DNA of 34,431 bases from Candidatus Desulfolinea nitratireducens (lineage in GTDB: Bacteria; Chloroflexota; Anaerolineae; Anaerolineales; Villigracilaceae), in the NCBI GenBank assembly GCA_014382535.1, contig JACNJN010000120.1, positions 1 to 34,431 on the forward strand, given 5' to 3'. The position numbers and the translations under genes were made by a program. This document shows positions 10,153 to 29,694 of this stretch, piece by piece. Under the pieces are notes generated by a model. That model made no database searches. It was not told the origin of the DNA and worked only from the letters and a program-made list of their open reading frames with translations. Position 1 is the first letter of the stretch; every line of letters begins with the position of its first letter.

Positions 10153-10181
10153 TAGCATACATAGTGAAGGATGAGCGGTTA

Positions 10182-13008: not shown

Positions 13009-13022
13009 GAATGGAGCGACTC

Positions 13023-13982
13023 ATGTCAACAATGTTTTCAGAATTCACGCTTAAAAACCTCAAATTCACTCGAGAGAAGCTAAGTAAACTTGCTCGTCGT
13101 GAAGCAAATTGGGGTTTGGTCTTCTTATCACCATGGATAATAGGCTTTTTCCTTTGGAAATTCCTTCCTATGGTTGCTTCTCTGGTTTTTTCATTAACAT
13201 CGTTCAATCTTTTGCACAGAGAGGATATTCAGTGGGCCGGGCTGGAGAACTATCAACATTTCTTTAGCGATCCTTTGGTAGGTGTTGCAGTTAAAGTTTC
13301 GCTCACTTTTGCCCTTATTGCATTACCAATTGGAATTATTCAACCTATTTTAATGGCTGCCCTGCTCAACCAAAAAAACCTCAAGATGAAGCGCATTCTA
13401 ATTACATTGTTTTATATGCCTAAAATTGTGCCATTGGTATCAGCGGTCTATATATGGCAGGGTGTGTTGAATGCTCGAACAGGATGGGTCAATATTGCGC
13501 TCGAATCAATTGGAATACCAGGACCAGATTGGATCAACACCGTTACCTGGATCTACCCCGCCTTGGTTATGATCGGGTTATGGGGAGTAGGCGATATGCT
13601 GTTGTATACGTTAGCAACCATACAGGGTATTCCAACCGAACTTTATGAAGCCGCCCGTGTTGATGGTGCAGGAAGTTTTGCTACGTTTCGGCATATCACA
13701 ATACCTATGATCACGCCGATCATTTTTTATAACATGGTACTCTCATCAATAGGAATACTGATGTATTTTTTGGTGCCATTCGTACTCAAAGGACCAAATG
13801 GGGATCCTGGAAATGCAACCTGGTTTTATGGCATGTACCTTTATAAAGAAGCCTTTGCTTATTCAGATATGGGCATGGGCGCGACTATGGCGTGGATGCT
13901 GTTCTTATTCGCAATCCTTGTAACGGTAATTCTCTTTTCTACCCAAAAATATTGGGTGTATTACGCAGCGGAGGAGGCATAA
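13023..13982 (+). CDS. ABC sugar permease, MalF/UgpA type
   Basis: A 319-aa inner-membrane subunit with about six membrane helices, the first at about 40-60 (LSPWIIGFFLWKFLPMVASLVFSL). The EAA loop that contacts the ATPase is present (YEAARVDGAGSFATFRHITIPMITP). The ATG at 13023 is preferred over 13011 because GGAG lies 6 nt before it. It pairs with the next gene to form the transport channel. No ATPase gene is found in the operon, so a shared MsmX/UgpC-like ATPase elsewhere is expected, as is common for this transporter class. Confidence 0.92.
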   Translation: MSTMFSEFTLKNLKFTREKLSKLARREANWGLVFLSPWIIGFFLWKFLPMVASLVFSLTSFNLLHREDIQWAGLENYQHFFSDPLVGVAVKVSLTFALIALPIGIIQPILMAALLNQKNLKMKRILITLFYMPKIVPLVSAVYIWQGVLNARTGWVNIALESIGIPGPDWINTVTWIYPALVMIGLWGVGDMLLYTLATIQGIPTELYEAARVDGAGSFATFRHITIPMITPIIFYNMVLSSIGILMYFLVPFVLKGPNGDPGNATWFYGMYLYKEAFAYSDMGMGATMAWMLFLFAILVTVILFSTQKYWVYYAAEEA

Positions 13983-13984
13983 TA

Positions 13985-15052
13985 ATGACTGTTGGAACGA
14001 AACCTACTTCCCCTACGTTATCTAAACGCTTGCGGCCGATCATCGCCGGTGCTAGCCTCACCTTGTTCACCCTGCTCTTTTTAATGACGTATTTGTCGCC
14101 TTTTGGGTATATGACCGTTACGGCGATTAAAGATCGATCTATGATCGCCGATCCTGATGCACCAATTCTTCCTTCAAGGGAGGCTACCTTCACATATGAT
14201 GGTCAGGAAATGGCAATCTACTTGGTACCAACTGAGGATGGCGATTTTAATGAATGGGCCATGCTAAAAAAGGGTCGTGAGGAAAGTACATTCATCGATC
14301 CAAATAATCCTGAAGCTGGTCCAATTGAATGGGTTGGTAGATGGCGTACATTAGATAGAGTATGGAGTATCAGCCCAGTATGGGAGAACTTCTCTGAAGC
14401 CTGGACAGGGCTTAATATGACGCGTTTGTTGCGGAATACGATTGTGATTGCCGTAGCGGGGTCCATCGGCACATTAATTTCATGTACTGTGGTTGCCTAT
14501 GGATTCTCTCGCTTTCGTATACCTGGGAAAAATCTCCTCTTTATGGCGCTGATCTCTACGATCATACTCCCAGAATTTGTCACGATCGTTCCGACCTATG
14601 TAGTATTCGAACGCATAGGCTGGATAGGTACATGGCTGCCATTAATTGTGCCGCACTTCTTTGCCAATGCTTATAACGTGTTCTTGCTTCGTCAATTCTT
14701 TATGACCATCCCGAGAGAATTGGATGAAGCTGCTATGATTGACGGGGCTAGCCCTATACGCGTCCTTTTCTCTGTGATACTGCCCCAATCCATCCCTGCT
14801 CTTGTTGCGGTGGGAATGTTCCACTTCATGTTTGCCTGGAATGATTTTTTCGCACCCTTGTTATATCTCTCGACAGAACGGGAATTACAGCCAATCTCAA
14901 TTGGAATCCAGCTTTATAACGCGCGCTTTTTTGCCCAGCCGCATATGATCCAAGCCAGTTCCCTATTGGGGTTACTAGTGCCCGTCATCATCTTCTTCCT
15001 GGCACAACGTGTTTTCATGCAAGGCATCGTATTTACCGGAGTCGAAAAATAG
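13985..15052 (+). CDS. ABC sugar permease, MalG/UgpE type, with large external insert
   Basis: A 355-aa membrane subunit. The first membrane helix (about 24-46) is followed by an unusually long hydrophilic stretch (about 48-125, with VPTEDGDFNEWAMLKKGREE) before the second helix. Such an insert is familiar from MalG-like permeases of Chloroflexota and would lie outside the membrane. The EAA motif DEAAMIDGASPIRVLFSVILP is intact. The ATG at 13985 lies 2 bp after the stop of the partner permease and has a GGAGG Shine-Dalgarno; a longer frame starting inside the previous gene is not credible. It forms the channel with the previous gene product. Confidence 0.92.
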   Translation: MTVGTKPTSPTLSKRLRPIIAGASLTLFTLLFLMTYLSPFGYMTVTAIKDRSMIADPDAPILPSREATFTYDGQEMAIYLVPTEDGDFNEWAMLKKGREESTFIDPNNPEAGPIEWVGRWRTLDRVWSISPVWENFSEAWTGLNMTRLLRNTIVIAVAGSIGTLISCTVVAYGFSRFRIPGKNLLFMALISTIILPEFVTIVPTYVVFERIGWIGTWLPLIVPHFFANAYNVFLLRQFFMTIPRELDEAAMIDGASPIRVLFSVILPQSIPALVAVGMFHFMFAWNDFFAPLLYLSTERELQPISIGIQLYNARFFAQPHMIQASSLLGLLVPVIIFFLAQRVFMQGIVFTGVEK

Positions 15053-15055
15053 CAC

Positions 15056-16405
15056 ATGCTCAATCCAAAGACACGGATAAAATGGGTAGTCATCCTGTGT
15101 CTGCTATCTTGTTCGGCCTGCGGAGCAGAAGTAGATGTTGCCCTACCAACCTGGACGCCGATTCCGACACCAGTACCAGATGTATTGTATGTTGACGCTG
15201 GGCAAGATCTTGGCCCAATTAACCCCTATGTCTATGGTGCCAACTACGGTCCCTGGGTCATTGTTCCAGTAGACTTGATGCCCCAGGCTGAAACAGCTGG
15301 TGTGGGCTTTGTTCGCTTTCCCGGAGGGCAATGGGGAGATAAAAACGATCTAAAAGATTACCATATTGATCGTTTCATCGCGTTTTGCAATCAAATAAGT
15401 GCTGAGCCGCTAATCAATACGCGGTTACCTGGGGGCAGTCCAGAAGCAGCCTCCGAGTTAGTGCGCTATACCAATATTGAGAAGAACTATAACGTCCGCT
15501 ATTGGGCCATCGGCAATGAACCGTCCCTTTATGCTGGTTTTTATGATGAAAGCTATGACACCGAACGCTATAATGAGGAGTGGCGAGCGATTGCTGAGGC
15601 AATGTTGGCAGTCGATCCAGACATACTGCTCATCGGACCTGAAACTCATCAATTCACTGGTAACCCAAACACCGATCCGCGCGATGCCTCTGGGCGTGAC
15701 TGGATGCGCGAGTTTCTCATAAAAAATGGTGATTTAGTAGATATTGTCGCCATTCACCGCTATCCTTTTCCCACCAGCCTGAGCGCTCCGGCCAGAACCA
15801 TCGCTGATCTACGTGAGAACAGCAAAGAGTGGGATACCATCATCCCTAACCTGCGCAAATTGATTCGTGAAACCATTGGCAGAGATTTACCAATTGCGGT
15901 CTCTGAAATCAGTTCCGATTGGTCCCACGCAACTGGCGGGGAGGCTACACCCGACTCCTTTTATAACGCCATTTGGTGGGGGGATGTGCTCGGTCGGCTT
16001 ATTCAGCAGCAAGTCGATATTGTGGCTTATTTTTTGCTGCAAAGCCAATCCGGACAGGGAGGGTGGGGGTTGTTAGCGAGATTCGATGTACGGCCCACGT
16101 ATTATGTTTATCAAATGTACCAGCAGTTTGGAGATGAATTAATTTATGCATCTTCTGGCTTCTCTGAAATTTCTATTTACGCTGCCCGACGAAGCGACGG
16201 CGCGATGACTGCGATGATTATCAACTTGGGGCCGGATGACGTGCAAGTTCCACTGTATTTAGAAAACTTGGAGATTACTGATCCCGCTGAGGTCTGGCTG
16301 TTCGATGTTGACCACAAGGCAGAACATATAGGTATGCAATCCATTTCCAACGGATCCATACTGATGCTGCCAGGGCAGTCCATTTCCCTGTATGTGTTTC
16401 CGTGA
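15056..16405 (+). CDS. Lipoprotein glycoside hydrolase, clan GH-A-like
   Basis: A 449-aa secreted, lipid-anchored protein. The signal peptide carries a lipobox (LLSC, Cys19; Cys22 is an alternative), followed by a Pro/Thr linker (PTWTPIPTPVP). The body looks like a (beta/alpha)8 barrel of clan GH-A: acid/base Glu E155 in WAIGNEP and likely nucleophile E284 in VSEISSDW, with a His-Tyr pair (IHRYPFP) between them. A C-terminal beta domain (from about 370) follows. The pattern recalls GH39/GH51/GH44-type enzymes, but I cannot assign a family. It starts 3 bp after the permease gene, so it is co-translated with the importer and probably trims oligosaccharides at the cell surface before uptake. Confidence 0.75.
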   Translation: MLNPKTRIKWVVILCLLSCSACGAEVDVALPTWTPIPTPVPDVLYVDAGQDLGPINPYVYGANYGPWVIVPVDLMPQAETAGVGFVRFPGGQWGDKNDLKDYHIDRFIAFCNQISAEPLINTRLPGGSPEAASELVRYTNIEKNYNVRYWAIGNEPSLYAGFYDESYDTERYNEEWRAIAEAMLAVDPDILLIGPETHQFTGNPNTDPRDASGRDWMREFLIKNGDLVDIVAIHRYPFPTSLSAPARTIADLRENSKEWDTIIPNLRKLIRETIGRDLPIAVSEISSDWSHATGGEATPDSFYNAIWWGDVLGRLIQQQVDIVAYFLLQSQSGQGGWGLLARFDVRPTYYVYQMYQQFGDELIYASSGFSEISIYAARRSDGAMTAMIINLGPDDVQVPLYLENLEITDPAEVWLFDVDHKAEHIGMQSISNGSILMLPGQSISLYVFP

Positions 16406-16480
16406 ATTGAAATAAATTTATAGCATCTGCTCAAATTGTTTTTAGCAAGAAATAAGAAAGATAAATAGAGGCATCAAACT

Positions 16481-17767
16481 ATGAAAGTTACTGTTATCGG
16501 CGGAGGCTCAACATACACGCCCGAACTCGTAAATGGTTTTTTGGAGCGCATTGCATCCTTCCCATTAACTGAATTGTGCCTGATGGACATCAATAAGGCG
16601 CGGCTTGATATCGTTGGCGGCTTTGCTCAACGAATGGTGGAAGCCAAGGGTGCGCCCTTCACAGTCAGCCTTTCAACGGACCAACGCCAGGCAATCCAGA
16701 ATTCATCCTACGTGATCACCCAATTACGTGTGGGTATGATGGAAGCAAGGCGCAGTGATGAGTATCTGGGGAAACGATACGGCATCCTTGGGCAGGAAAC
16801 CACGGGTATAGGCGGCATGGCAAAGGCATTGCGCACTATTCCAGTAATCTTGGATATTGCCAAGGATATACGCGAAGTAGCCCCTGGTGGGACCCTGGTC
16901 AATTTTACAAATCCCGCTGGCTTAGTCACTGAGGCATTATCACGTTATGCCGCCGATGTTCAGTCGGTGGGTGTTTGCAATGTGCCCATAACTACCAAGA
17001 TGAACATACTCGAAGATTTGGAACAAAGTTTGGGAACCAGCATCCCACCCGAAACGGCGCAACTGGATACATTAGGATTGAATCACCTCTCCTGGCATAG
17101 GGGATTCACCGTCAATGGGGAGGACGTTTGGTCCCAGGTTATCCAGGGGATGATTACCGATTTGGAAGCCAGTCAAGAACCCGAATGGGATATCCGTGCG
17201 ATTGAATCCCTGAAAATGATCCCCAACTATTATCTGCAATACTTTTACCATACCGACCGCAAACTTGCTGCCCAAGAGAAGTGGCCGCCCTCACGTGCCG
17301 AGGAAGTCATCGAGATCGAAAAAGGCTTGCTGAACCAATATGCCGATCCGACACTTTCCGAGCCACCTGAAGACTTGATGAAACGCGGCGGTGCTTATTA
17401 TTCGACGTTGGCAACTCAACTGCTCAACGCGCATTATAACGACCTGAGTGAGACCCATATAGTTAATGTGCCACATGGTGGTGCGGTTAAAGGTTGGCCC
17501 GAGGACTGGGTTTTGGAGATGCCGTGTCGAGTTTCGAGTGACGGTTTTCACCCTCTTCCAACGGAACCTCTTCCGCCTGTCTGTTATGGATTGATTGCCC
17601 AGATAAAAACATTTGAAATCCTCACGGTTGAGGCTGCTGTCCATGGGGATAAAGATGCTGCATTCCAGGCTATTCTCGCTCATCCACTATGCCCGCCTGC
17701 TGACAAGGTTCAGCAAATCCTTGATGAGTTGTTGGACACCAACCGCGAATATTTACCTCAGTTTTAG
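16481..17767 (+). CDS. GH4 6-phospho-beta-glucosidase-like enzyme
   Basis: A 428-aa NAD- and metal-dependent glycosidase of family GH4. The dinucleotide-binding start VIGGGSTYTPEL (5-16) is followed by GQETTGIGGMAKALRTIP (104-121), NFTNPAG (141-147) and C166-N-V-P169, the motif variant linked to 6-phospho-beta-glucosidases. The reaction goes through oxidation at C3 and beta-elimination. In E. coli the GH4 enzyme ChbF cleaves mono-deacetylated chitobiose 6-phosphate, and a ChbG-type deacetylase lies further along this operon. Here there is no PTS, so the source of a phosphorylated disaccharide is unclear: either a kinase acts on it or this enzyme accepts unphosphorylated substrate. A 75-bp gap precedes it; no clear hairpin seen there. 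Confidence 0.88.
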   Translation: MKVTVIGGGSTYTPELVNGFLERIASFPLTELCLMDINKARLDIVGGFAQRMVEAKGAPFTVSLSTDQRQAIQNSSYVITQLRVGMMEARRSDEYLGKRYGILGQETTGIGGMAKALRTIPVILDIAKDIREVAPGGTLVNFTNPAGLVTEALSRYAADVQSVGVCNVPITTKMNILEDLEQSLGTSIPPETAQLDTLGLNHLSWHRGFTVNGEDVWSQVIQGMITDLEASQEPEWDIRAIESLKMIPNYYLQYFYHTDRKLAAQEKWPPSRAEEVIEIEKGLLNQYADPTLSEPPEDLMKRGGAYYSTLATQLLNAHYNDLSETHIVNVPHGGAVKGWPEDWVLEMPCRVSSDGFHPLPTEPLPPVCYGLIAQIKTFEILTVEAAVHGDKDAAFQAILAHPLCPPADKVQQILDELLDTNREYLPQF

Positions 17768-17804
17768 GTTTGTTATTGACAGGATATATTGTGGAGTGAT
17801 CTAT

Positions 17805-19472
17805 ATGCGTAAATTCCCGAAACTAGATTTGAATTCCGATTGGGTTGAAAAGACCCTTGGCGAAATGACGCTCGATCAAAAAATCGGTCAGCTGCTGCAC
17901 CCGTGTATTCAACCTTCAAGCTCTGTTGAACACCGTACAGAAGCTTTAGGTAGCGTAGAACCTGGGGGCTTGTTCTTGTTCTCAGGTAGCAGACAGGAAT
18001 TTTTAGAGATTACACGCTGGTTTCAGGATCGATCTCCAATTCCGTTGCTCATATCAGCGGACCTCGAGAACGGTGCCGGCAATATAGTTGAAGATGCCAC
18101 GCGCTTTCCCAGTTTGATGGGGCTTGCCGCAACTGACAACGCGCAATTGGCTTATGAGATGGGCCGTGCTGCGGCGGTAGAAGGCCGATCTTGCGGGGTG
18201 CATTGGTCCTTTGGCCCGGTTGTGGATCTCTGCGTCAATCCCCACAACCCCGATAGTAATACCCGTAGCATGGGTGATAACCCAGATCGGGTGGCGAGCC
18301 TCTCTCAAGCCATGATCCGGGGTATGCAGGAAAACGGTTTATGCGCCACAGTAAAACACTTCCCCGGTGCCGGATTTGATGATCGGGATCAACATCTCAC
18401 CAATACCATCAATCCTCTTCGGATGGATCAATGGTTTGAATCCAGTGGGCGGATGTTTCAAGAGGCCTTCGAGTTGGGTGTGTGGAGCGTCATGATAGGG
18501 CATTTGTCTTTACCCGCCTGGGATCCAGGAGTGGGCGAGCACATTCAATATTCACCCCCTGCGACCCTATCCCGCAGAATTGTCACTGACTTGCTGCGTG
18601 AGCGAATGGGGTTCGATGGTGTGATTATCACGGATGCACTGGATATGGCCGGGGTGACCGCCTGGGGGGTGTTCGATGAGATCATCCCCCGGGTGATTGA
18701 GGCGGGGTCTGATATGATCCTCTTTTCTGAAGCAAAACGAGATTTTGATATTCTACGGCGGGCGGTAGATGATGGTAGATTATCTGAAGAACGTATCGAG
18801 GAATCCGCTCGTCGGATTTTGGCGTTGAAAGAAACACTCAATCTCCAAGGGGATTCTGGCTCGACGCCGGTATCAGATGAAGAAGGTGAATTTTTTCAAC
18901 AAACCAGCGTCAGTATCGCTGAGAAATCCATCACTTTAGTAAAGGATAACCATAATGCCCTGCCCCTTAAATTTGAGAAAGGTGTGCGCGTATTGAGTTA
19001 TCACCTGCGCGGCGATCCTGAGGACAACGTGGATACCTTTGATGATCTGTTGCGTCAGAAGGGTGCAGAAGTCGTTCGTTTCACTGAAGAAGATATCAAC
19101 AGCATCCCTCGGGGACATGACTTCGCTGACTATGATGTCGTGCTGCTCAACATCGTACTCAAACCATCCTGGGGAACCAACCGTATCAGGCCAGCTGGAA
19201 ATTTCATGCGAGATGTTTGGGCGTTGATCACATGTCACCACCCCCGCCTGGTTATGATCTCATATGGTTCTCCATACATGAGTTACGAAATGCCCTTTGT
19301 GCCCCTGGTAATTAATGCATATTCGAATGACCTCAATACCCAGAAAGCCGTGTTGCGAGTTTTAAGTGGTGAGATCCAAGCCAAAGGGATCAGCCCTGTT
19401 GATCTTGATAGTCCCTATTTTACAAAATCATTGGATGGCTTCCGCGCTAACCTTCGAGATAATGAAAAATGA
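17805..19472 (+). CDS. GH3 beta-N-acetylhexosaminidase (NagZ-like)
   Basis: A 555-aa family GH3 enzyme. It carries the beta-N-acetylglucosaminidase signature: KHFPGAG (184-190) followed by D195-Q-H197, the Asp-His pair that acts as acid/base in NagZ-type enzymes, and the nucleophile D277 in VIITDALDMAG. The second domain (about 360-555) is reduced compared with beta-glucosidases. No signal peptide is seen, so it acts in the cytoplasm. It should release GlcNAc from beta-linked chains such as chito-oligosaccharides or peptidoglycan fragments. The ATG at 17805 with GGAG upstream is chosen; the open frame reaching back into the GH4 gene has no start support. Its last bases overlap the next gene by 4 bp (ATGA). 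Confidence 0.9.
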   Translation: MRKFPKLDLNSDWVEKTLGEMTLDQKIGQLLHPCIQPSSSVEHRTEALGSVEPGGLFLFSGSRQEFLEITRWFQDRSPIPLLISADLENGAGNIVEDATRFPSLMGLAATDNAQLAYEMGRAAAVEGRSCGVHWSFGPVVDLCVNPHNPDSNTRSMGDNPDRVASLSQAMIRGMQENGLCATVKHFPGAGFDDRDQHLTNTINPLRMDQWFESSGRMFQEAFELGVWSVMIGHLSLPAWDPGVGEHIQYSPPATLSRRIVTDLLRERMGFDGVIITDALDMAGVTAWGVFDEIIPRVIEAGSDMILFSEAKRDFDILRRAVDDGRLSEERIEESARRILALKETLNLQGDSGSTPVSDEEGEFFQQTSVSIAEKSITLVKDNHNALPLKFEKGVRVLSYHLRGDPEDNVDTFDDLLRQKGAEVVRFTEEDINSIPRGHDFADYDVVLLNIVLKPSWGTNRIRPAGNFMRDVWALITCHHPRLVMISYGSPYMSYEMPFVPLVINAYSNDLNTQKAVLRVLSGEIQAKGISPVDLDSPYFTKSLDGFRANLRDNEK

Positions 19473-20596
19473 GCGCATTCAAAATTGGCGTAAAAGTTTA
19501 TGACAATGATTGGTTTCTGAAGTACGGGTTGTCCTACCAGGAAGCTGCCCAGGTGCTTATGGATTGGGGTGTATCTTATGTGCTGGCCCAGAGTAAATAT
19601 CTACCAATGCCGGATAGTGCTGTGGAAAGCGAGGTATCCCAGGAGTACTCTGGACGTTATGCTCAGTTAGATGATCGGAAATTTAGGGATGCGCTCGCTG
19701 AAGAAGGCATTGAATATTGGGCGACGGTGTGTACATTTTTCGATCCTCCAGCGATTGAAGAGAATCCGGAATGGAGACCGATTGGCTCAGACGGGCGACC
19801 AATGAACCAGGTTGACTGGTATGTTGGGATTGCGCCATCAATGATGGAGTACGTCAACCAGAAGATAGCTGCCATCGCTAATGCCGTGGATAAACTCGAG
19901 CCAGATGGTGTGTTCCTGTCCTTTACCCGTTGGCCGGGGTTTTGGGAATTATGGACCCCAAAATATCAGCGGGGCGATTTCCCTGAATATAGCTACGATC
20001 CCATTACCCTGAGACAGTTCAATCAAGATACTGGGGCGGAAGTGCCTGAGGGTAACCCAAGCGCTGCTGCGGAATGGATCGACGAAAACGTCCGTGAACT
20101 TTGGACAGCGTGGAAATGCCAGAAGGTCGTTGACGTCATCTGCATGGCCGGGGAAGCTGCCAGAAATCGAAAACCAAACACCAAGATCATGTTGAATACG
20201 CTCCCCTTTGGAGATGATTTCGAGGGGGCGCAGGCCGAGGTGTTTGGACAAAACGTGGGAATGTTGGCTGAGATGGTGGATGTTTTTGAAGTAATGACCT
20301 ACCATCAAATTCTCAAGCGCCCCATCCAATGGATTCCTCAAGTTGGGAATATCGTGAAGCAGCGTACGGGTAAAGAAACAGTGTGCACGTTGCAGGCAAC
20401 GCCATTATATTTGGAAGGGATCCACACGAAAGAAAAGCGCTCACCTGCCTTGGATGTCCAAGAATTTGCCAAAGCAGTAAAACTTACCAAAGATGCAGGG
20501 CTGGATGGGGTGGTGGTATTCGTGTGGTCAGATTTGTTGGAGAGGGTTTTTAAGGATAGGGATTTACGTTGGATAGAAGCCCTCCAAGGAAAATGA
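19469..20596 (+). CDS. Unrecognised protein, 375 aa, probable TIM-barrel sugar enzyme
   Basis: I do not recognise a named family. Alternating strand and helix patterns, a C-terminal strand VVVFVWSDLLERVF and many aromatic residues (SFTRWPGFWELWTP near 155-168) suggest a (beta/alpha)8 barrel that binds carbohydrate. Candidate acidic catalytic residues exist (for example D148 region PDGVFLSF and E273-type FEVMTY) but the motif does not match a family I know. There is no signal peptide, so it is cytoplasmic. It is coupled by 4-bp ATGA overlaps to the GH3 gene before it and the kinase gene after it, so it is almost certainly part of the same pathway. Confidence 0.72.
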   Translation: MSAFKIGVKVYDNDWFLKYGLSYQEAAQVLMDWGVSYVLAQSKYLPMPDSAVESEVSQEYSGRYAQLDDRKFRDALAEEGIEYWATVCTFFDPPAIEENPEWRPIGSDGRPMNQVDWYVGIAPSMMEYVNQKIAAIANAVDKLEPDGVFLSFTRWPGFWELWTPKYQRGDFPEYSYDPITLRQFNQDTGAEVPEGNPSAAAEWIDENVRELWTAWKCQKVVDVICMAGEAARNRKPNTKIMLNTLPFGDDFEGAQAEVFGQNVGMLAEMVDVFEVMTYHQILKRPIQWIPQVGNIVKQRTGKETVCTLQATPLYLEGIHTKEKRSPALDVQEFAKAVKLTKDAGLDGVVVFVWSDLLERVFKDRDLRWIEALQGK

Positions 20597-21594
20597 TGGA
20601 TTCGAATGGGGTAGTGGGAAGTATGGAGAGATATTTTTTAGGAGTCGACATCGGAAGTACAAAAAGCCATGCGTTAATTGCTGACGATAGCGGGCGGGCG
20701 ATCGGGTTTGGCAAGGCTGGCCCTGGGAATTGGGAGACCGTTGGTTGGGAAAATACCCGTCAGGTGCTGCAAACGATTGTTGATCAGGCAATTGAATCGA
20801 GTAATATCGCTCGGGCTCAAATTGCTGGCGCGGGGTTCGGAATTGCTGGATATGATTGGGAAGAAGATCTGCAGCCCCATCAGGAGATCGTCGATTCCTT
20901 GAGGTTGAACGCCCCTTACCAGATCGTCAATGACAGTATCATCGGTCTGGTAGCCGGGGGTATGAAAGGATGGGGTGTCGTGATCTCGGCGGGCACCAGT
21001 AATAACTGTCGTGGCCGAGGCCAGAATGGGGAGGAAGGCAGGATTGTTGGAGACGGCATTCGATTTGGTGAATTTGGGGGCGCTTACGAGATTGTTTGGA
21101 AGGCGATTCACGCAGTGGCCGCAGCCTGGACACAGCGGTCTTCTCCCACGAAACTGACGGAAAAATTTATAGACATAACTGGGGCAGCCGATATTTCTGA
21201 TTTGATCTCTGGCATAGTGCGCGATCAATACAGCTTGTCAGCGAAACATGCACCCCAAATATTTCGCATTGCGGAAGAGGGGGATGAGGTTGCCCAGGAG
21301 ATCATCCGCTGGGCAGGCCGAGAATTAGGTGATCTGGCCATTGGTGTAATTCGACAGCTGAATTTTCAGAATACTGAATTTGAAGTAATTTTAGCCGGGA
21401 GCCTCTTCAAGGGAAGTAATTTGTTATCAGCCTCGTTAAAGAAAAGAGTGCTCGTTGAAGCGCCAAAAGCAACCTTCGTGCGATTGAAGGAGCCCCCGGT
21501 AGTTGGGGGCGTATTATTGGGGATGGAAACTGCCGGCGTTGAGATCTATCGCTACCGCGAGCGCCTGCTTGAATCATCTTTAGATTTATTATGA
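20593..21594 (+). CDS. BadF/BadG-type ATPase, likely N-acetylglucosamine kinase
   Basis: A 333-aa ASKHA-fold kinase. The phosphate-1 loop GVDIGSTKSHALIAD lies near 17-31, the phosphate-2 loop SAGTSNNCRGR in the middle, and an adenosine-binding VILAGSLFKG near the C-terminus. Family members include eukaryotic and bacterial GlcNAc kinases. It would phosphorylate GlcNAc or GlcN at O6 after hydrolysis. I chose the ATG at 20593: it gives the ATGA overlap with the preceding gene and has AAGGA close upstream. An ATG at 20623 (MERYFLGVDIG) is a possible later start. The creatininase and SIS genes follow, which together suggest a three-step route from GlcNAc to fructose 6-phosphate. Confidence 0.87.
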   Translation: MMDSNGVVGSMERYFLGVDIGSTKSHALIADDSGRAIGFGKAGPGNWETVGWENTRQVLQTIVDQAIESSNIARAQIAGAGFGIAGYDWEEDLQPHQEIVDSLRLNAPYQIVNDSIIGLVAGGMKGWGVVISAGTSNNCRGRGQNGEEGRIVGDGIRFGEFGGAYEIVWKAIHAVAAAWTQRSSPTKLTEKFIDITGAADISDLISGIVRDQYSLSAKHAPQIFRIAEEGDEVAQEIIRWAGRELGDLAIGVIRQLNFQNTEFEVILAGSLFKGSNLLSASLKKRVLVEAPKATFVRLKEPPVVGGVLLGMETAGVEIYRYRERLLESSLDLL

Positions 21595-21651
21595 TAAATA
21601 AACCCGATAATTCCTTACCGGAAAAGCAAATTATTTTTTGGGAGAATATCG

Positions 21652-22479
21652 ATGAAATGGGAAAACCTTACATCTTTAGATTTTGAAAACCAGGCCAAGC
21701 AGTGTGGTGGTGTTGGGATTATTCCAGTTGGGGTTCTCGAAGCCCACGCTTCCCATCTTCCCTTAGGTACAGATCTGTTTGTCGCCTATTCGTCTGCCTG
21801 CCGTGCTGCTGAGATCGAAACAGCAATCGTCTTTCCGGCTTATCCTTACGGCATCAATATCGAGACAGCACACCTGCCTGGGGGTGTTGTGATTAAACGA
21901 GAGCTGGTTTTTGCGTTGTTGGAGAATATCTGCGATGAGATGTATCGCAATGGGCTGAACAAAATTATTTTGCACAGTGGGCATGGGGGTAACCGTTATT
22001 ACCTGCCGCTGTTCGTGCAGACACTTCCTGAGAAGGACAAGTCCTATACAGTCTATTACGCAAACCTGGAATTTTTCCCCGGTGCTGAAGATATATTAGA
22101 AACAACGGAATACGGTCATGCTGGTGAGGCCGAAACCAGCATGCTATTGCACATTGACCCGGATCTGGTCAAAATGGATCAGGTGCCCCCCATGCCGTTC
22201 ACCAGCTTGAAGCGGAACGCTGAACTAAAAGAAGTGGGTGCATATACTCAGGTCGATTGGTATTCAATGTATCCGCATATGTATGTTGGTGACGCCAGTA
22301 AATCCACTGCAGAGAAGGGGAAGACCATGTTTGATCACGAAGTAGATGCGCTGGTGACCCTCATTCAGGCTGTCAAAGCGGATCGCGTCACCCCAGGCTT
22401 CGTGGAGGAATTCAACCAGCGCAAGAGCAATCCAACCACACCCGATTTTTGGACCTCTCCCGGCGAGGGTGAAAAATAG
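21652..22479 (+). CDS. Creatininase-family metal amidohydrolase
   Basis: A 275-aa protein of the creatininase superfamily. The metal ligands are seen as E30-x-H32 and D41 in GVLEAHASHLPLGTD, with HSGHGGN (108-114) and EYGHAGEAETS further on. The HGGN form is that of family members other than creatininase itself, such as the formamide hydrolase ArfB and the peptidase MftE, so hydrolysis of an amide bond is likely but creatinine is not. In this operon, between a GlcNAc-kinase-like gene and a SIS-domain gene, the attractive substrate is the N-acetyl group of GlcNAc or GlcNAc 6-phosphate, replacing NagA. That is inference. A TTGGGAGAA Shine-Dalgarno supports the start. Confidence 0.87.
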   Translation: MKWENLTSLDFENQAKQCGGVGIIPVGVLEAHASHLPLGTDLFVAYSSACRAAEIETAIVFPAYPYGINIETAHLPGGVVIKRELVFALLENICDEMYRNGLNKIILHSGHGGNRYYLPLFVQTLPEKDKSYTVYYANLEFFPGAEDILETTEYGHAGEAETSMLLHIDPDLVKMDQVPPMPFTSLKRNAELKEVGAYTQVDWYSMYPHMYVGDASKSTAEKGKTMFDHEVDALVTLIQAVKADRVTPGFVEEFNQRKSNPTTPDFWTSPGEGEK

Positions 22480-22480
22480 T

Positions 22481-23518
22481 ATGGGGCTCCATGAAGAAAT
22501 CTATGAGCAGCCACTTGTCTTGGGACGGTTGTTAGAAAGCCAACTCGATACCGTTCAGCGAATTGCCGCGGCCATCAAGAAAGCGGATATTGATTATATA
22601 TTTCTAACAGCACGCGGCACTTCCGATCATGCTGGGTTGTATGCCAAATATCTATGGGGGATGGTAAACCAGTTGCCCGTTGCCTTAGCTGCGCCATCTC
22701 ATTTCAGCGTTTATAAGCAGCCGCCTCGCCTGAACCGAGCTGCGGTCGTCGGCATATCCCAATCGGGGCAGTCTCCAGATATTGTCAGCGTACTGGCAGA
22801 AGGCAGGCGGCAAGGCGCGCTGACAGTGGCAATTACCAACGCCCCGGATTCTCCGTTGGCAGAGAACGCTGATCATGTATTAGATATTAGTGCGGGACCA
22901 GAAAAAGCAGTCGCTGCCACGAAAACCTATACCGCACAGCTGATGGCCATTGGTATGTTGTCAGCTGCCCTTTGTGAGAACAATCAGATGTTTGAGCGAT
23001 TGCAGCAGGTGCCTGCCCAGGTGCAGGAAATGCTGGCATTGGACGCATCTATTCGACAGATCACTGAACGATATCGCTATATGACCCATTGTGTTGTGCT
23101 GGGACGTGGCTACAACTATGCCACTGCCTTCGAGTGGTCGTTGAAGTTGAAGGAATTGACCTATGTGGTGGCAAATCCTTATTCCCCAGCCGATTTCCAA
23201 CATGGACCCATCGCCATTGTAGAGGAGGGTTTCCCCGTGTTGGCGGTAGCTCCCCAGGGAGCAGTCCGCGAGAACTTGCAAGCACTATTACAGCGCCTGA
23301 AGGATGAGCTCCGGGCTGAGCTGCTGATCCTGTCGAATGATGAGGCCACATTAGATCTGGCTCATACGCCCCTGAAATTGCCAAAGGAGATGCCAGAATG
23401 GGTCAGCCCCTTGGTGAGCATCATACCTGCCCAACTCTACTGCTATCACTTGACCCTCGCAAAGGGATGGGATGCGGAGGCCCCGCGTGGTTTGAAAAAA
23501 GTGACTGAGACAAAATAG
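22481..23518 (+). CDS. Double SIS-domain protein, GlmS-isomerase-like (NagB-II-type candidate)
   Basis: A 345-aa protein equivalent to the isomerase half of GlmS without the glutaminase half. The first SIS domain has ARGTSDHA (44-51), SQSGQSPD and PEKAVAATKTYT; the second has KLKELTY with the catalytic-type Glu, FQHGPIAIVEE with the catalytic-type His, and the C-terminal DAEAPRGLKKVT with Lys. Stand-alone forms include GlcN-6-P deaminases (NagB-II), fructosamine deglycases and related enzymes. Here it probably converts GlcN-6-P to fructose 6-phosphate and ammonia. The ATG at 22481 is 1 bp after the creatininase stop; a GTG at 22469 is less likely because MGLHEEIYEQP matches the usual family start. 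Confidence 0.88.
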   Translation: MGLHEEIYEQPLVLGRLLESQLDTVQRIAAAIKKADIDYIFLTARGTSDHAGLYAKYLWGMVNQLPVALAAPSHFSVYKQPPRLNRAAVVGISQSGQSPDIVSVLAEGRRQGALTVAITNAPDSPLAENADHVLDISAGPEKAVAATKTYTAQLMAIGMLSAALCENNQMFERLQQVPAQVQEMLALDASIRQITERYRYMTHCVVLGRGYNYATAFEWSLKLKELTYVVANPYSPADFQHGPIAIVEEGFPVLAVAPQGAVRENLQALLQRLKDELRAELLILSNDEATLDLAHTPLKLPKEMPEWVSPLVSIIPAQLYCYHLTLAKGWDAEAPRGLKKVTETK

Positions 23519-23535
23519 AAAGGATCAAAATTTCC

Positions 23536-24756
23536 ATGAACGCCAAGCAAAAAATCATCCTTCTCTGGCTGTTTTGGGCCATCATTCTGATTGGCTTTCA
23601 AGCTACAGTACAGGCACGCTATGAGCCAAAGCGCCCTGATAAAGTATTACAGTGGACAGCCAACGAAACTACGCGTGTATTCAATAAGGATCAACCCTAT
23701 CTCATCGACCCTTTTATGAATAATCAGGTGGCCTGGGATTCCGAATTCTATATTTCGATTTCCCTGGCAGGATATGATGATCCAGTTTTAAGATCCATCG
23801 GCGATTTTGAATGGAGTCGGACCCCGGAAGGGGACTTTTCCCTGAATTACGCCTTCCTGCCTTTTTACCCTTTTGTGATGCGTTTGCTTTATTACCCGCT
23901 CTCAATACTTGGATTAACCGATGTAGCAACAGCGACCCTGGCAGGTGTATTGGTTTCCCTACTAGGTACTTTAGGCGCCATGCTGGCACTCTACGGTCTG
24001 GTGGAACCCCATCTGGAAGATTCCGGGGGGATGAGGGCTGTTTTTTATCTTGTGATTTTCCCAACGGGCTTTTTTCTGGCACAAGTTTATACGGAAGGCT
24101 TGTTCGTCGGGTTGGCGTTTGGTTCATTAGCATTGTTAAAGAGAAAGAAATTATTGTGGGCAGCAGTCCTGGCAGTATTCGCCACCTGGACCAGGGCCGT
24201 TGGGGGCGCCTTGCTCATTGCTCTGCTCTGGTTTTGGGTAAAGGAAACGGATTGGCAGAATTTCCAGTGGCGCGATCTTGGCCGCGGAATGATCGCCTTA
24301 CTCCCCCTGGGGGCCTTTTTGGCCTGGAAGTTCTCACCATGGGGGAGGGCATTTAGCATCGTTGAAGATCAATTTTTCGGCCGGGGGATTTTCTTGATAA
24401 GAAGTTCGCTCTCTAATTGGGCTTTGGGTTATCGTTCGATTTTTGCTAACAACCTGCAAACCCGCGTCTTTTACCTGATCGAGTTTGCCGCGACGTTGTT
24501 GGGTTTGGTAGCCTGTTTCGCCACGCTGCGCCGCTATCCAGCGGAGGCTTTGTTTGGTTTAGCCGTTATCGGGATTTCCTTTTTCAGTGGACAAGCGCAA
24601 GGAATGCCACGATATGTAATCGCGGTACCTTCTGTGTTCATCTTTTTGGCCACTCTTGGTAAGAATGAGATTTTTGACCGTGCCTGGACCGTGGGCAGCG
24701 TACTATTGATGGGTATGTTAGCTGCCCTTTATGCGTTCAATTTTTGGGTCGCATAA
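23536..24756 (+). CDS. Multi-spanning membrane glycosyltransferase (Gpi18/mannosyltransferase-like)
   Basis: A 406-aa integral membrane protein with about ten hydrophobic helices, the first at 7-24. After helix 1 comes an outer loop with an acidic motif (AWDSEFYISISLAGYDDP, about 67-83; D68 and E70), as in GT-C enzymes of the Gpi18/PIG-V mannosyltransferase group that use lipid-linked sugar donors. Other motifs are FLPFYPFVMRLLYYP and FATWTRAVGGALL. Its job in a sugar-uptake operon is not obvious; it might glycosylate a lipid or surface protein, or it may be a passenger. An AAAGGA lies about 10 nt before the ATG and 17 bp separate it from the SIS gene. Confidence 0.75.
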   Translation: MNAKQKIILLWLFWAIILIGFQATVQARYEPKRPDKVLQWTANETTRVFNKDQPYLIDPFMNNQVAWDSEFYISISLAGYDDPVLRSIGDFEWSRTPEGDFSLNYAFLPFYPFVMRLLYYPLSILGLTDVATATLAGVLVSLLGTLGAMLALYGLVEPHLEDSGGMRAVFYLVIFPTGFFLAQVYTEGLFVGLAFGSLALLKRKKLLWAAVLAVFATWTRAVGGALLIALLWFWVKETDWQNFQWRDLGRGMIALLPLGAFLAWKFSPWGRAFSIVEDQFFGRGIFLIRSSLSNWALGYRSIFANNLQTRVFYLIEFAATLLGLVACFATLRRYPAEALFGLAVIGISFFSGQAQGMPRYVIAVPSVFIFLATLGKNEIFDRAWTVGSVLLMGMLAALYAFNFWVA

Positions 24757-24771
24757 GCCTGGAATCTTGAT

Positions 24772-25725
24772 ATGCACCGGTATATCCATGTAGTGGTCAT
24801 ATTGTCATTTGCCTTGTGCTCATGCAAACAGGTACAGTTGCCCCAGGAGACAGAGATTATGTCCATACCTACCTCATCATTTCGCGTGATCGCGTATGCT
24901 ACCGAGGCGATTATCGTAGATCTGATCCCTTTTGAGCGGATTACGCACATCAACTATGCCTTCCTGATCCCCAATGAAGACGGCAGCTTTGCTGATTTGC
25001 ACAACCCCTGGAAATTAAAACAGATTGTTGAAGGGGCACATGCCCAGGGGGTCAAGGTTTTCATCTCGGTTGGGGGTTGGGGTTGGGATCAACAATTCGA
25101 GCAGATGGCAGCCCAAAAGGAGTCTCGATCAGCCTTCGTGCGCAATCTGGTGAATTTTGTTGATGAGTATAATCTGGATGGCGCCGATGTCGATTGGGAA
25201 TATCCCAACCCTGATCAGTCAGAGGAATTTCTGTCCTTGATGAGCGAACTGCGCGAGGCCCTGCCAGCCGACATAATGCTTACCGCGGCGGTAATTGCCT
25301 ATGGCGATGAGCACGGCCTGGGCATCACACCAGAAGCCTTCCAGTTGATGGATTTTGTCAATATCATGACCTATGATGGCCCCGACCATGGCACAATGGC
25401 GCAGTTTGAAAAGGGGTTGGCCTATTGGGCGGACAGAGGTCTTCCACCCGAAAAGATGGTGCTGGGCGTGCCATTCTATGCCCGCCCTGATGGCACCCCT
25501 TATTCCCGGTTGGTCGCGGCTGATCCAGCCGCTGCCCAAGTTGATACCTTTGAACTCTACGGCGTGCAGTTGCACTACAACGGCATCCCCACCATCCAGG
25601 CCAAGACACGCCTGGCTCTGGAACAAGTAGGGGGCATCATGTTCTGGGCCTTGGATCACGACAGCCAGGACGAGCACTCTTTGCTTCTCGCTATGGATCA
25701 AGTCGTATTTGGCGAAATAAAGTAA
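24772..25725 (+). CDS. GH18-family lipoprotein (chitinase-like)
   Basis: A 317-aa exported protein. A short signal ends with a lipobox-like LCSC (Cys16 or Cys18). The GH18 signature DxxDxDxE is complete: D136-G-A-D139-V-D141-W-E143, with E143 as catalytic acid. SVGGW (99-103) and the C-terminal GGIMFWALDHD also fit. At 317 aa with no insertion domain it resembles small GH18 enzymes such as endo-beta-N-acetylglucosaminidases, chitinases or spore-hydrolase relatives. It probably cuts GlcNAc-containing polymers at the surface, supplying oligosaccharides to the ABC importer. It lies 15 bp after the membrane glycosyltransferase gene and 44 bp before the ChbG-like gene. Confidence 0.9.
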   Translation: MHRYIHVVVILSFALCSCKQVQLPQETEIMSIPTSSFRVIAYATEAIIVDLIPFERITHINYAFLIPNEDGSFADLHNPWKLKQIVEGAHAQGVKVFISVGGWGWDQQFEQMAAQKESRSAFVRNLVNFVDEYNLDGADVDWEYPNPDQSEEFLSLMSELREALPADIMLTAAVIAYGDEHGLGITPEAFQLMDFVNIMTYDGPDHGTMAQFEKGLAYWADRGLPPEKMVLGVPFYARPDGTPYSRLVAADPAAAQVDTFELYGVQLHYNGIPTIQAKTRLALEQVGGIMFWALDHDSQDEHSLLLAMDQVVFGEIK

Positions 25726-25769
25726 GATTGATTCATGAACAGTATACTACCTCGAAGTGACCCTGAAAT

Positions 25770-26603
25770 ATGACCAGATCAATTCGACTAATCGTGAATG
25801 CCGACGATTATGGGCGTACTGTTGAAGTTTCAATTGGTATCCGACAGGCCCACCTTAACGGCATCATCACTTCGACAACCTGTATGATGAATATGCCTAC
25901 CATCTTCGAGGATATTAAACTTGCCTTAGAGGAGGCCCCTGATCTGGGATTGGGCGTGCATCTGGTGCTGACGGCAGGCAGGCCGCTCTCTCCCCCCGAT
26001 GACATGGGCACATTGACCGACTCCCAGGGTGGGTTCTTGAAACCCGATGAGCTTTTATCTCGCCTCGGACAGATTGACCCCACGCAAGCACAGGCGGAAT
26101 GGCGCGCCCAGATCGAGGCTTTTATCACTGCGTCAGGCAGGCAACCCACCCACCTGGATTCTCACCATCACTCATCCTACTTCAGTGAACCCTTGATGCG
26201 CGCCATGCTCGAACTGGCATGTGATTACGATTGCGCAATCCGCCAACCGCGCGCATTTCGACCCGATGGTCTCCCGGATGGCCTGCCTGAGCAGGTTCAA
26301 GAGCCAATCCAAGAATATGGTCCGCGCCTGATAGCCGAGTTCGAGTCGCGCTGCCCGGATGTATTCTATGCCAGCTTCTACGATGATCTTGCAACTCGAC
26401 AGGAGTTGCTTCGCATTCTGGATGACCTCAGCATGGGTACATCCGAGATCATGTGCCATCCTGGATATGCCAGCCCTGAGCTGATCGCCTCATCCTACTA
26501 TTCGAACCAACGTGAGATTGAATTGCAAATTCTCACCGATCCCACTGTAAAGGAGATCGTCGAGCAGAAAGGTATTGAATTGATAACTTTCGCTGAATTT
26601 TAG
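25770..26603 (+). CDS. chbG: ChbG/HpnK (YdjC)-family carbohydrate deacetylase
   Basis: A 277-aa metal-dependent deacetylase. The family start IVNADDYGRT (8-17) carries the Asp ligand and the catalytic Asp; H64 (GVHLVLT) and the THLDSHHHS cluster (127-135) give the remaining metal-binding histidines, with CHPGY near the end. In E. coli ChbG removes one acetyl group from chitobiose or chitobiose 6-phosphate, which is needed before the GH4 enzyme ChbF can cut it. Presence of both a GH4 enzyme and this gene in one operon strongly supports an amino-sugar oligosaccharide substrate. The protein has no signal peptide and acts in the cytoplasm. Other YdjC proteins act on different substrates, so the exact sugar is uncertain. 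Confidence 0.88.
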   Translation: MTRSIRLIVNADDYGRTVEVSIGIRQAHLNGIITSTTCMMNMPTIFEDIKLALEEAPDLGLGVHLVLTAGRPLSPPDDMGTLTDSQGGFLKPDELLSRLGQIDPTQAQAEWRAQIEAFITASGRQPTHLDSHHHSSYFSEPLMRAMLELACDYDCAIRQPRAFRPDGLPDGLPEQVQEPIQEYGPRLIAEFESRCPDVFYASFYDDLATRQELLRILDDLSMGTSEIMCHPGYASPELIASSYYSNQREIELQILTDPTVKEIVEQKGIELITFAEF

Positions 26604-26642
26604 ATTCATTAGGAAATAATTCTTTAGGTGCTAATAACGAAA

Positions 26643-28460
26643 ATGAATGAACCAACCCTAACTTACAAAGATCCTTCCCAATCCATTGACCTACGTGTCG
26701 ATGACTTGCTAGCCCGTATGACTATGGAAGAAAAAATCGGTCAGATGACTCAGGTCGAGAAAAACAGCGTCAAACTGGAAGAAATCGGCAAATTTTTTGT
26801 TGGCTCTGTGCTCAGCGGAGGGGGTGGATCGCCTCCTGAAAACACAGTTGAAGGCTGGGCCGAGATGGTCGATTCATTCCAACGGGCCGCCCTCGGAACT
26901 CGCCTGGGGATTCCCATCATCTATGGGGTCGATGCTGTCCACGGACACACCAACCTTAGAGGGGCTACCGTTTTTCCTCACAACATTGGCCTGGGCGCAG
27001 CAAATGACCCTGATCTAATGTTCGCCATCGGTCAGGCTACGGCGGTGGAAATGCTGGCGACTGGAATCCCCTGGAATTTTGCTCCAGCAGTCTCTATCCC
27101 CCAGGATATTCGTTGGGGCCGCACATTCGAGGGGTATGGTGAAGATACCGATCTGGTCACGCGCTTGGCAATCCCTTACCTTCAGGGTTTGCAAACCCCT
27201 CCCGAAGGGTGGCCGAAGGATGAGATTTTGGTTCTTGGCACGCCCAAACATTACCTTGGCGATGGTGGCACAGTTTTCGGCTCATCGACGACGGTTATCG
27301 AACAGCAACGTTATCTTCTTGACCAGGGGGATACACGCATGGGGGAGGAGACATTGCGAACCCTCTTCCTGCCGCCCTACGAGGCAGCGATAGAAGCCGG
27401 AGCACTCAGCATTATGGCATCATTCAATAGTTGGCATGGGGAAAAATTGCATGCCCATCCCTATCTGCTGACAGAAGTGCTCAAGGGTGAGTTAGGTTTC
27501 GGTGGTTTCATAATTTCCGATTGGGAGGCGGTCAATCAAGTCTCGGACGATTACTACACTGCCGTGGTAGAGTCAATCAATGCCGGCATAGATATGGTGA
27601 TGACACCCTACGACTACCAGGCCTTTATTGTGGCGCTCACCCGAGGAGTGGAAGAAGGCCGTGTATCGACCTTACGCATCGACGATGCTGTACGGCGAAT
27701 TTTGAAAGCTAAATTCTCTGTTGGGTTATTCGAGAGTCCACTCTCCAATCCAACCCTGAAGGAGGTTGTGGGCTCTAAAGATCATCGTGAACTGGCGCGC
27801 CAGGCTGTGCGTAAATCATTGGTGTTGTTAAAGAACGAAAATCAGACAATCCCCATTGAAAAGGAAACGCCATTGATCATTGTTGCTGGGGAGGGTGCTG
27901 ACAATATTGGCCTGCAATCTGGAGGGTGGACAATCGAGTGGATGGGAAAATCTGGACCGATTACTCCAGGAACAACCATCTTGGAAGGAATCCGGACGGC
28001 AGTATCACCCGATGCGATTGTGAACTACGAAAGCTCTGGTCGTTTCGAAAGAAATGTTGGTGAAAATGGAAAACCGATGATCGCCGATGTTGGTATCGTG
28101 GTGATCAGTGAAGAGCCGTATGTTGAAGGTTTTGGTGACCGGGCAAACCTGACCCTATCTGGTGAAGATGTCGATCTGATCGCCCGCGTTCGCAAACACT
28201 GCCAGAAATTGATCGTTATCATAATCTCAGGGCGGCCGTTGGTGCTCACGGATCAACTTCCACTGATGGATGCCCTGGTAGCTGCCTGGCTGCCTGGCAG
28301 CGAAGGTGCTGGTGTAGCTGATATGCTCTTCGGTGATTATCCTTTCAATGGCAGGCTGCCTTTTACGTGGCTGCGGACTAACGATCAACTTCCATTGAAT
28401 ATAAATAATTCAAAATCTGATCAGTCGCTCTTCTCCTTTGGGTTTGGGCTAGAAACGTGA
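26643..28460 (+). CDS. GH3 beta-glucosidase / exo-glucanase
   Basis: A 605-aa two-domain GH3 enzyme. The N-terminal barrel shows YGVDAVHGH (94-102), GRTFEGYGED (159-168), PKHYLGDG (201-208) and the nucleophile D293 in ISDWEAV. The C-terminal alpha/beta domain contains SLVLLKNENQTIPI and ends with a usual SFGFGLET. It lacks the NagZ Asp-His motif, so unlike the first GH3 of the operon it should act on glucosides. It resembles plant-type and bacterial exo-1,3/1,4-beta-glucanases. No signal peptide is apparent. ATG at 26643 is preferred; a GTG start 15 bp upstream is possible. It follows the deacetylase gene after 39 bp. Confidence 0.92.
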   Translation: MNEPTLTYKDPSQSIDLRVDDLLARMTMEEKIGQMTQVEKNSVKLEEIGKFFVGSVLSGGGGSPPENTVEGWAEMVDSFQRAALGTRLGIPIIYGVDAVHGHTNLRGATVFPHNIGLGAANDPDLMFAIGQATAVEMLATGIPWNFAPAVSIPQDIRWGRTFEGYGEDTDLVTRLAIPYLQGLQTPPEGWPKDEILVLGTPKHYLGDGGTVFGSSTTVIEQQRYLLDQGDTRMGEETLRTLFLPPYEAAIEAGALSIMASFNSWHGEKLHAHPYLLTEVLKGELGFGGFIISDWEAVNQVSDDYYTAVVESINAGIDMVMTPYDYQAFIVALTRGVEEGRVSTLRIDDAVRRILKAKFSVGLFESPLSNPTLKEVVGSKDHRELARQAVRKSLVLLKNENQTIPIEKETPLIIVAGEGADNIGLQSGGWTIEWMGKSGPITPGTTILEGIRTAVSPDAIVNYESSGRFERNVGENGKPMIADVGIVVISEEPYVEGFGDRANLTLSGEDVDLIARVRKHCQKLIVIIISGRPLVLTDQLPLMDALVAAWLPGSEGAGVADMLFGDYPFNGRLPFTWLRTNDQLPLNINNSKSDQSLFSFGFGLET

Positions 28461-28526: not shown

Positions 28527-28545
28527 GATTGGGCCATAACCACGG

Positions 28546-29694
28546 ATGCGTGCAAATACCTCATCTTCGATAATTTACTTTCTATATTTTGCAGCGATAG
28601 CCGCAGTAATTCCCTTTCTGGCATTATATTATCGATCCATGGGCCTCTCTGGTAGCCAAGTTGGGTTGTTGCTGGGCATTTCACCCTTGCTAACCCTATT
28701 CGCCTCACCTTTTTGGACTGGGCTGGCAGATGCTAGGCAGCGGCATAGAGTCGTATTGACGATCACACTAGTTGCAGCTGTAGCAATCATGTCGATGGTT
28801 CCAGCAATTACCAATTTTGGTCTGCTCCTCGTCGCAATCATTCTGTTTTCCTTCTTCTCTGCTCCCATCATGTCCCTAGTGGATAGTGCAACTTTATCTT
28901 CCCTAGGCAACCAGCGCGAAATGTATGGTCGCATCCGGTTATGGGGGACGATTGGATGGGGGTTATCTGCGGCGATGCTGGGAATGATATTCCAACGGTA
29001 TGGTCTACGATGGATGTTCTGGTCATATGCGATCTTTATGGCTCTGATCCTGATTCCTAACACTCGGGTGAAGTATCCTAGCGTAGCTTCAGAGACGCCC
29101 TTCTGGTCTGGTGTGAGGTCGTTACTGGTAAACCGACGCTGGGTGTTGTTTTTGGTGATGATCTTTGTGGCCGCGATTGGTATGGCAGCACACACAAATT
29201 ACATGTCGATATTGATGGACGAAATCGGTGGCAGTAAGACATTGATAGGTATTGCCTTCATGATTTCGACCGTCTTCGAACTACCGGTCATGTTCTTTTC
29301 CTACATCCTGTTGCGCAAGCTTAATACTAAGGGCGTGCTCATTCTGGCTATCGTCATCACCGGCCTGCGCTGTGTGTTGTATGCTTTTGCGAGAAGCCCT
29401 TGGGTTGTCATGGCTATTCAAGGGTTGCATGGTTTTACTTTCCCGGCTTTGTGGATCGCTGCAGCTACCTACGCCTCAGAGAACGCGCCGGAAGGGTTAT
29501 CCGCCACAGCCCAAGGTCTGTTGGGAAGTGTCTTGCTGGGCTTCGGTGCTTCCACGGGAGGATTGCTGGGCGGTGTGTTGCTTGAGAGATTGGGAGTGCA
29601 GGGGATGTTTGGGGCTATCGGTGCCCTTGTGTTTATTGGATTGATTGGCATTCTGACCATTGAGCGTTTGGTGGAGATCAGACCGGCAACTTAA
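28546..29694 (+). CDS. MFS transporter, LacY/nucleoside-symporter-like
   Basis: A 382-aa membrane protein with about 12 helices, starting with YFLYFAAIAAVIPFLALYY. The loop between helices 2 and 3 has GLADARQRHR, the usual MFS motif-A place. The lack of a long central loop and the overall pattern recall the MFS_1-like (LacY/NupG-type) group. It could export or import a mono- or disaccharide produced by the operon. It is the last gene of the run, 85 bp after the GH3 gene, with no clear Shine-Dalgarno. It might be read from the operon or separately. The metY promoter begins 11 bp after its stop. Confidence 0.85.
   Translation: MRANTSSSIIYFLYFAAIAAVIPFLALYYRSMGLSGSQVGLLLGISPLLTLFASPFWTGLADARQRHRVVLTITLVAAVAIMSMVPAITNFGLLLVAIILFSFFSAPIMSLVDSATLSSLGNQREMYGRIRLWGTIGWGLSAAMLGMIFQRYGLRWMFWSYAIFMALILIPNTRVKYPSVASETPFWSGVRSLLVNRRWVLFLVMIFVAAIGMAAHTNYMSILMDEIGGSKTLIGIAFMISTVFELPVMFFSYILLRKLNTKGVLILAIVITGLRCVLYAFARSPWVVMAIQGLHGFTFPALWIAAATYASENAPEGLSATAQGLLGSVLLGFGASTGGLLGGVLLERLGVQGMFGAIGALVFIGLIGILTIERLVEIRPAT

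Follow-up and report, generated by a model that had tools for sequence, protein, structure and literature searches.

The closest described counterparts of the locus considered here are the chb system of Escherichia coli, in which import through a phosphotransferase system (PTS) is combined with the deacetylase ChbG and the glycoside hydrolase family 4 (GH4) enzyme ChbF, and the NagK–NagB-II pathway of Shewanella (SO3507 and SO3506). Our locus lies in a 34,431-nucleotide stretch of DNA (contig JACNJN010000120.1; hereafter the window) from the 3.65-Mb, 97.9% complete draft genome of Candidatus Desulfolinea nitratireducens (Chloroflexota, class Anaerolineae), where a creatininase-family gene stands between the genes for a BadF/NagK-type kinase and a SIS protein. 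Like chb, the run of genes around it encodes a deacetylase of the YdjC/ChbG family together with a 6-phospho-beta-glucosidase-type GH4; unlike chb, it has an ABC transporter and a kinase, a SIS-type deaminase, no NagA and an extra creatininase-family gene. With the Shewanella pathway it shares the types of kinase and deaminase (74 bits to NagK_SO3507, the sole NCBIfam match of the kinase, and 242 bits to NagB_SO3506), although both matches fall below the equivalog cut-offs of 370 and 430 and NagA is missing. We posit, with confidence somewhat better than even, that the locus encodes a PTS-free, chb-type chitobiose pathway in which the YdjC protein deacetylates and the creatininase-family protein is accessory, so that, on our best reading, the latter is not the enzyme that enables the pathway.

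The genes on which this proposal draws are the following, by window coordinates.

11473..12921, forward strand: ABC solute-binding protein (Pfam SBP_bac_1, 88 bits)
13011..13982, forward strand: ABC sugar permease 1 (Pfam BPD_transp_1)
13892..15052, forward strand: ABC sugar permease 2 (Pfam BPD_transp_1; true start probably downstream of the start of the open reading frame)
16481..17767, forward strand: GH4, 6-phospho-beta-glucosidase type (Pfam GH4, 189 and 161 bits)
17613..19472, forward strand: GH3 with a NagZ-like N-terminal domain (Pfam GH3, 237 bits)
20623..21594, forward strand: BadF/NagK-type amino-sugar kinase, 323 aa (Pfam BcrAD_BadFG, 90 bits)
21652..22479, forward strand: creatininase-family metal hydrolase, 275 aa (Pfam Creatininase PF02633, 176.2 bits, above the cut-off of 31.3)
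22481..23518, forward strand: SIS protein, NagB-II-type glucosamine-6-phosphate deaminase, 345 aa (Pfam SIS PF01380, 121 bits)
24772..25725, forward strand: GH18 glycosidase (Pfam GH18, 152 bits)
25770..26603, forward strand: YdjC/ChbG-family deacetylase, 277 aa (Pfam YdjC, 210.3 bits, cut-off 29.7)
26628..28460, forward strand: GH3 glycosidase (best NCBIfam GH3-type model 322 bits; none reaches its cut-off)

A sequence-only reading of the window had described the kinase, creatininase-family and SIS genes as adjacent and tightly spaced, and so they are: the order holds on one strand, with gaps of 57 and 1 bp and likely starts at ATG 20623 (kinase) and ATG 22481 (SIS). It had also seen no NagA, which the whole genome, window included, bears out, the best match to the NagA model TIGR00221 reaching 23.3 bits against a cut-off of 225.65; among control genomes the model scored over its cut-off in 7 of 14. 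Its next step, that deacetylation was left without an enzyme, does not hold up, as a YdjC/ChbG gene had been overlooked in this run, 2.25 kb past SIS; that the creatininase-family protein had replaced NagA is not supported. The encoded protein comes near the NCBIfam model for chitin disaccharide deacetylase without passing it (NF002559, 196.6 bits, cut-off 227) and matches the structure 7vi8 of Klebsiella ChbG at 91 bits. The catalytic residues given for the Klebsiella enzyme in PMC9402603 (D10, D11, H61, H125, H206 and R223) have intact counterparts in the alignment, namely D12-D13 (within NADD), H64, a histidine of DSHHH at 130-134, H230 and R248.

We hypothesize that the GH18 and GH3 enzymes release short beta-linked oligosaccharides of N-acetylglucosamine (GlcNAc), chitobiose or similar, which the ABC transporter would import. 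The kinase would then add the 6-phosphate, the job of the PTS in E. coli, the YdjC/ChbG protein would take off an acetyl group, and GH4 would cleave the deacetylated 6-phospho-disaccharide; PMC12791066, citing Walter 2021, states that the E. coli GH4 depends on the earlier removal of one acetyl group by ChbG. The SIS protein would convert glucosamine-6-phosphate to fructose-6-phosphate and ammonia, and the creatininase-family protein, probably cotranscribed, may act as an accessory metal-dependent amide hydrolase on a side substrate. An amino-sugar route in the NagA-less genome, as the sequence-only reading had it, is supported. PMC6277806 describes a GlcNAc transporter in a lineage of Anaerolineae. 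If the proposal is right, a GH4–YdjC–kinase unit could swap the PTS for a kinase.

The individual assignments are of uneven firmness. GH4 is closest among solved structures to the 6-phospho-beta-glucosidases 5c3m and 1s6y (337 bits), and the kinase to the N-acetylmuramic acid (MurNAc)/GlcNAc kinase 8zo3 (95 bits). For the SIS protein the GlmS and NagB-II models score best and alike (252 and 242 bits), both below their cut-offs; the NagB-II equivalog NF046059 stands at 242.3 bits against 430. Six of the 30 best SIS loci have nagA next to the homologue, which supports a NagB-II role. The GH18 protein falls well short of the cut-offs of the two NCBIfam models that it matches, ChiD (66.8 bits) and endoglycosidase H (30.9 bits), and the first GH3 scores 130 bits to the beta-N-acetylhexosaminidase model, under its cut-off of 207.

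The distribution of the creatininase-family gene likewise speaks against a replacement of NagA. Among 396 genomes, orthologues 61–68% identical to the window protein occur in 10 others; all ten match nagA, leaving the window genome as the only one without it, whereas orthologues of a NagA replacement would be expected chiefly in nagA-less genomes. The nagA match is over the cut-off in eight (G254, G234, G094, G084, G174, G317, G363 and G383), in each of which nagA adjoins the SIS gene; in G259 it has an E-value of 3.6e-71, and in G311 it is a 125.7-bit fragment at a contig edge. Of 20 genomes from the same family among those listed (further family members may exist), 17 lack nagA, 3 have it and none has the creatininase orthologue. 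Loss of nagA and gain of the orthologue are uncoupled.

Nor did a single neighbourhood rule for the close orthologues survive, as contexts vary across the 11 genomes. The gene adjoins the kinase in the window, G094 and G383; lies between birA and prmC in G254, G234 and G363 (for locus L177 by a Pfam scan, for the remaining two because their neighbouring genes resemble it); is directly 3' of a sulfatase gene in G259 and G174, and 7.6 and 4.8 kb past one in G311 and G317; and follows an AGE-family epimerase gene in G084. A single origin of the three kinase–creatininase linkages is neither shown nor rejected (approximately unbiased test, p-AU 0.44). One more relative, at locus L012, is 74% identical over 125 residues, its contig ending within the gene, and stands outside the nagA count; the order there is PIG-L, ABC transporter, creatininase, and the same order ends in SIS at L132, L136 and L143.

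The window's plan recurs without an adjoining creatininase gene in three other genomes. In G164, of the same family and nagA-less, counterparts of SIS (60% identical), YdjC (53%), GH18 (59%), kinase (46%) and GH4 (72%) lie within 13 kb together with permeases, a binding protein and LacI, and a 39%-identical creatininase is encoded on a separate contig. The nagA-less G133 has PIG-V-like, SIS (54%), LacI, GH4 (66%), YdjC, kinase (53%) and binding-protein (76%) genes, the last adjoining GH4–YdjC–kinase (L163), and G192, with nagA elsewhere in its genome, has GH4–YdjC–kinase–SIS.

Kinase loci and nagA were surveyed in 298 genomes of the class, neighbours being located by tblastn; 103 of these genomes have no nagA match at E<=1e-20, and some nagA-less ones carry both kinase and NagB-II-type genes (for example G111, G164 and G280). 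At the 30 top-scoring kinase loci, one of them that of the window, GH4 is found within 1.5 kb on either side in 23; YdjC adjoins the kinase in 11, creatininase in 2 (the window and G094), and both together in none. Anywhere in the genome, YdjC is encoded by 25 of the 30, by 11/11 without nagA and 14/19 with it (one-sided Fisher p 0.08), which suggested that YdjC compensates for loss of nagA across the class. Thirty further kinase genomes, partly picked for lacking nagA, did not bear this out, with YdjC in 8/19 nagA-less genomes and in all 11 that have nagA. YdjC accompanies the GH4–kinase system rather than nagA loss, a pattern that favours neither side; we therefore dropped it as support, and our confidence in the chb-type pathway slipped slightly. 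In G198, a genome with no nagA or YdjC match, a 286-aa protein of no Pfam family (L155:2746-3606, reverse strand) is encoded between GH4 and kinase, the place that YdjC takes elsewhere.

Several observations weigh against the pathway that we propose. Over all 60 kinase genomes, YdjC is present in 19 of the 30 without nagA and 25 of the 30 with it (two-sided Fisher p 0.14, relatedness ignored), which leaves 11 nagA-less kinase genomes without a YdjC match as well. G094 and G383 carry GH4–kinase–creatininase in genomes that lack a YdjC match, and the YdjC of the window belongs to another subtype than those beside GH4–kinase elsewhere (37–46 bits to those). The putative substrates of GH4 and the kinase are carried over from relatives. 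In 11 of the 30 best SIS loci a gene of a known deacetylase family is found no more than 1.5 kb from SIS (NagA in 6, PIG-L in 4 and YdjC in 1), and with creatininase as the nearest gene to SIS in the window, its position hints at deacetylation. Lastly, ChbG takes off one acetyl group only (PMC12791066), so a nagA-less cell needs an enzyme for the second; this could be YdjC itself, the creatininase-family protein or one of the four PIG-L proteins matched in the window genome. The PIG-L family is seen near NagB-II-type SIS genes at L089, L091, L105 and L106, as well as in the PIG-L–ABC transporter–SIS clusters noted above, and is possibly another NagA stand-in in the class. Here, then, are two further deacetylase families, YdjC and PIG-L, near kinase or NagB-II-type genes in a class where many genomes lack NagA.

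What the creatininase-family protein itself can tell is limited to its family. With creatininase, MftE, IolN and BrbF it shares the PF02633 match, the fold and conserved residues; it falls under every NCBIfam equivalog cut-off (true creatininase TIGR04448, 81.8 bits against 235; MftE TIGR03964, 92.6 against 172; IolN NF041098, 62.4 against 245) and on these scores is rejected as any of the first three. E30, H32, D41, H111, H156 and E161 do not vary among 30 sequences, one of them that of the window, in keeping with the earlier view that all metal ligands are in place; the site of creatininase Glu122 (GHYEN), however, is Gly113 here (GHGGN). The full ligand set would be present only if a glutamate of the HAGEAET motif substitutes for Glu122. 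A structure model of moderate quality, built on six sequences (mean predicted local distance difference test score, pLDDT, 66.9), gave 26 fold matches at E<=0.001, all of them creatininase-family chains, so the structure offers no substrate clue.

Other members of the family sit in other company. Relatives 47–52% identical to the window protein (L114–L117) stand beside PfkB kinase, zinc alcohol dehydrogenase and DeoC/LacD aldolase genes in 4 of 5 loci, a setting that, judged by gene families, may be an inositol-like catabolic module; the one such relative scanned also falls below the IolN cut-off. The window genome has a second creatininase-family gene (L007 and L180, G000:C178) beside a CAP-domain protein gene, in an unrelated context.

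Among the alternatives, the one that fares best is that the creatininase-family protein is after all a deacetylase of N-acetyl amino sugars, either taking the acetyl group left by ChbG/YdjC, on GlcNAc or GlcNAc-6-phosphate, or replacing YdjC on chitobiose-6-phosphate in G094 and G383. Its place beside SIS and the unassigned second acetyl group speak for this reading, the presence of nagA in all ten other genomes against it, and we regard it as unlikely though worth keeping in view. If true, the family would, as far as our literature searches show, gain a new activity, and NagA, YdjC and PIG-L would be joined by one more unrelated enzyme for the task. We found no paper linking the creatininase family to GlcNAc deacetylation, the matches for creatininase with GlcNAc being unrelated, and nothing on non-orthologous replacement of nagA; among the matches listed, as far as their available portions go, no report of this operon type was recognised. 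A tempting functional guess is corrected, and the question of what the creatininase-family protein does is narrowed to a few substrates.

A quite improbable alternative places the kinase after cleavage, acting on free GlcNAc or MurNAc, so that the cluster would serve peptidoglycan or glycoprotein salvage and GH4 would have another substrate. The kinase's nearest solved structure and the NagZ-like GH3 in the run are consistent with this; against it, GH4 best matches 6-phospho-beta-glucosidases, which would require a source of phosphate, and is a neighbour of the kinase, at 1.5 kb or less, in most of the best kinase loci, and the SIS protein stays below the cut-off of every MurQ-type etherase model.

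We consider it very doubtful that the creatininase-family protein stands in for ChbG/YdjC, deacetylating chitobiose or its phosphate ahead of GH4 rather than GlcNAc-6-phosphate. The GH4–kinase clusters of G094 and G383, with creatininase directly 3' of the kinase and nagA beside SIS, would fit such a role, as would the mutual exclusion of YdjC and creatininase next to the 30 best kinases; yet the window carries both genes, as do G234, G363, G084, G174 and G317 with creatininase away from the kinase, while G254 and G259 have GH4–kinase, lack a YdjC match and carry creatininase at a distance, and the linked cases number just three, whose kinases may or may not share an origin. Least probable of all is the replacement of NagA on GlcNAc-6-phosphate, for which one may cite the lack of nagA in a nearly complete genome, the tight fit of the gene between kinase and SIS, the deacetylases near SIS elsewhere and, from PMC9478397, the family's formamidase BrbF, which removes an N-formyl group from a ribosyl-phosphate substrate, but against which stand the ten nagA-bearing orthologue genomes, the nagA-less family members without an orthologue, and the YdjC gene and four PIG-L matches at hand.

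The remaining genes of the locus are listed here.

10164..11216, forward strand: LacI-family regulator, upstream of the run (Pfam LacI, 65 bits; Peripla_BP_3, 133 bits)
15056..16405, forward strand: GH39-like glycosidase (Pfam Glyco_hydro_39, 29 bits, cut-off 26)
19469..20596, forward strand: 375-aa protein, directly 5' of the kinase (no Pfam or NCBIfam match)
23536..24756, forward strand: membrane protein, PIG-V mannosyltransferase-like (Pfam Mannosyl_trans2, 26 bits, cut-off 22)
28546..29694, forward strand: MFS transporter, probably the final gene of the run (Pfam MFS_1_like, 240 bits)

The run itself spans 11473-29694 on the forward strand, its genes separated by short gaps and two of its starts approximate, in the order ABC transporter, GH39-like, GH4, GH3, 375-aa protein, kinase, creatininase-family, SIS, PIG-V-like, GH18, YdjC, GH3 and MFS. 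Homologues of the LacI regulator lie near GH4 in L008, L110, L138, L158, L161 and L163, and the GH39-like gene has homologues adjoining GH4 in L157, L158 and L197. The 375-aa protein has no relative among the compared neighbourhoods, and its single-sequence structure model is unusable (pLDDT 46). On the other strand, 5' of the cluster, the window encodes an AAA_21 ATPase, a Fic-domain protein and a DDE transposase (57-4052 and 8346-9989, reverse strand). At 32373-33230 (reverse strand) a 285-aa open reading frame matches only residues 240-420 of the 420 in the GH94 catalytic model and is perhaps a truncated gene.

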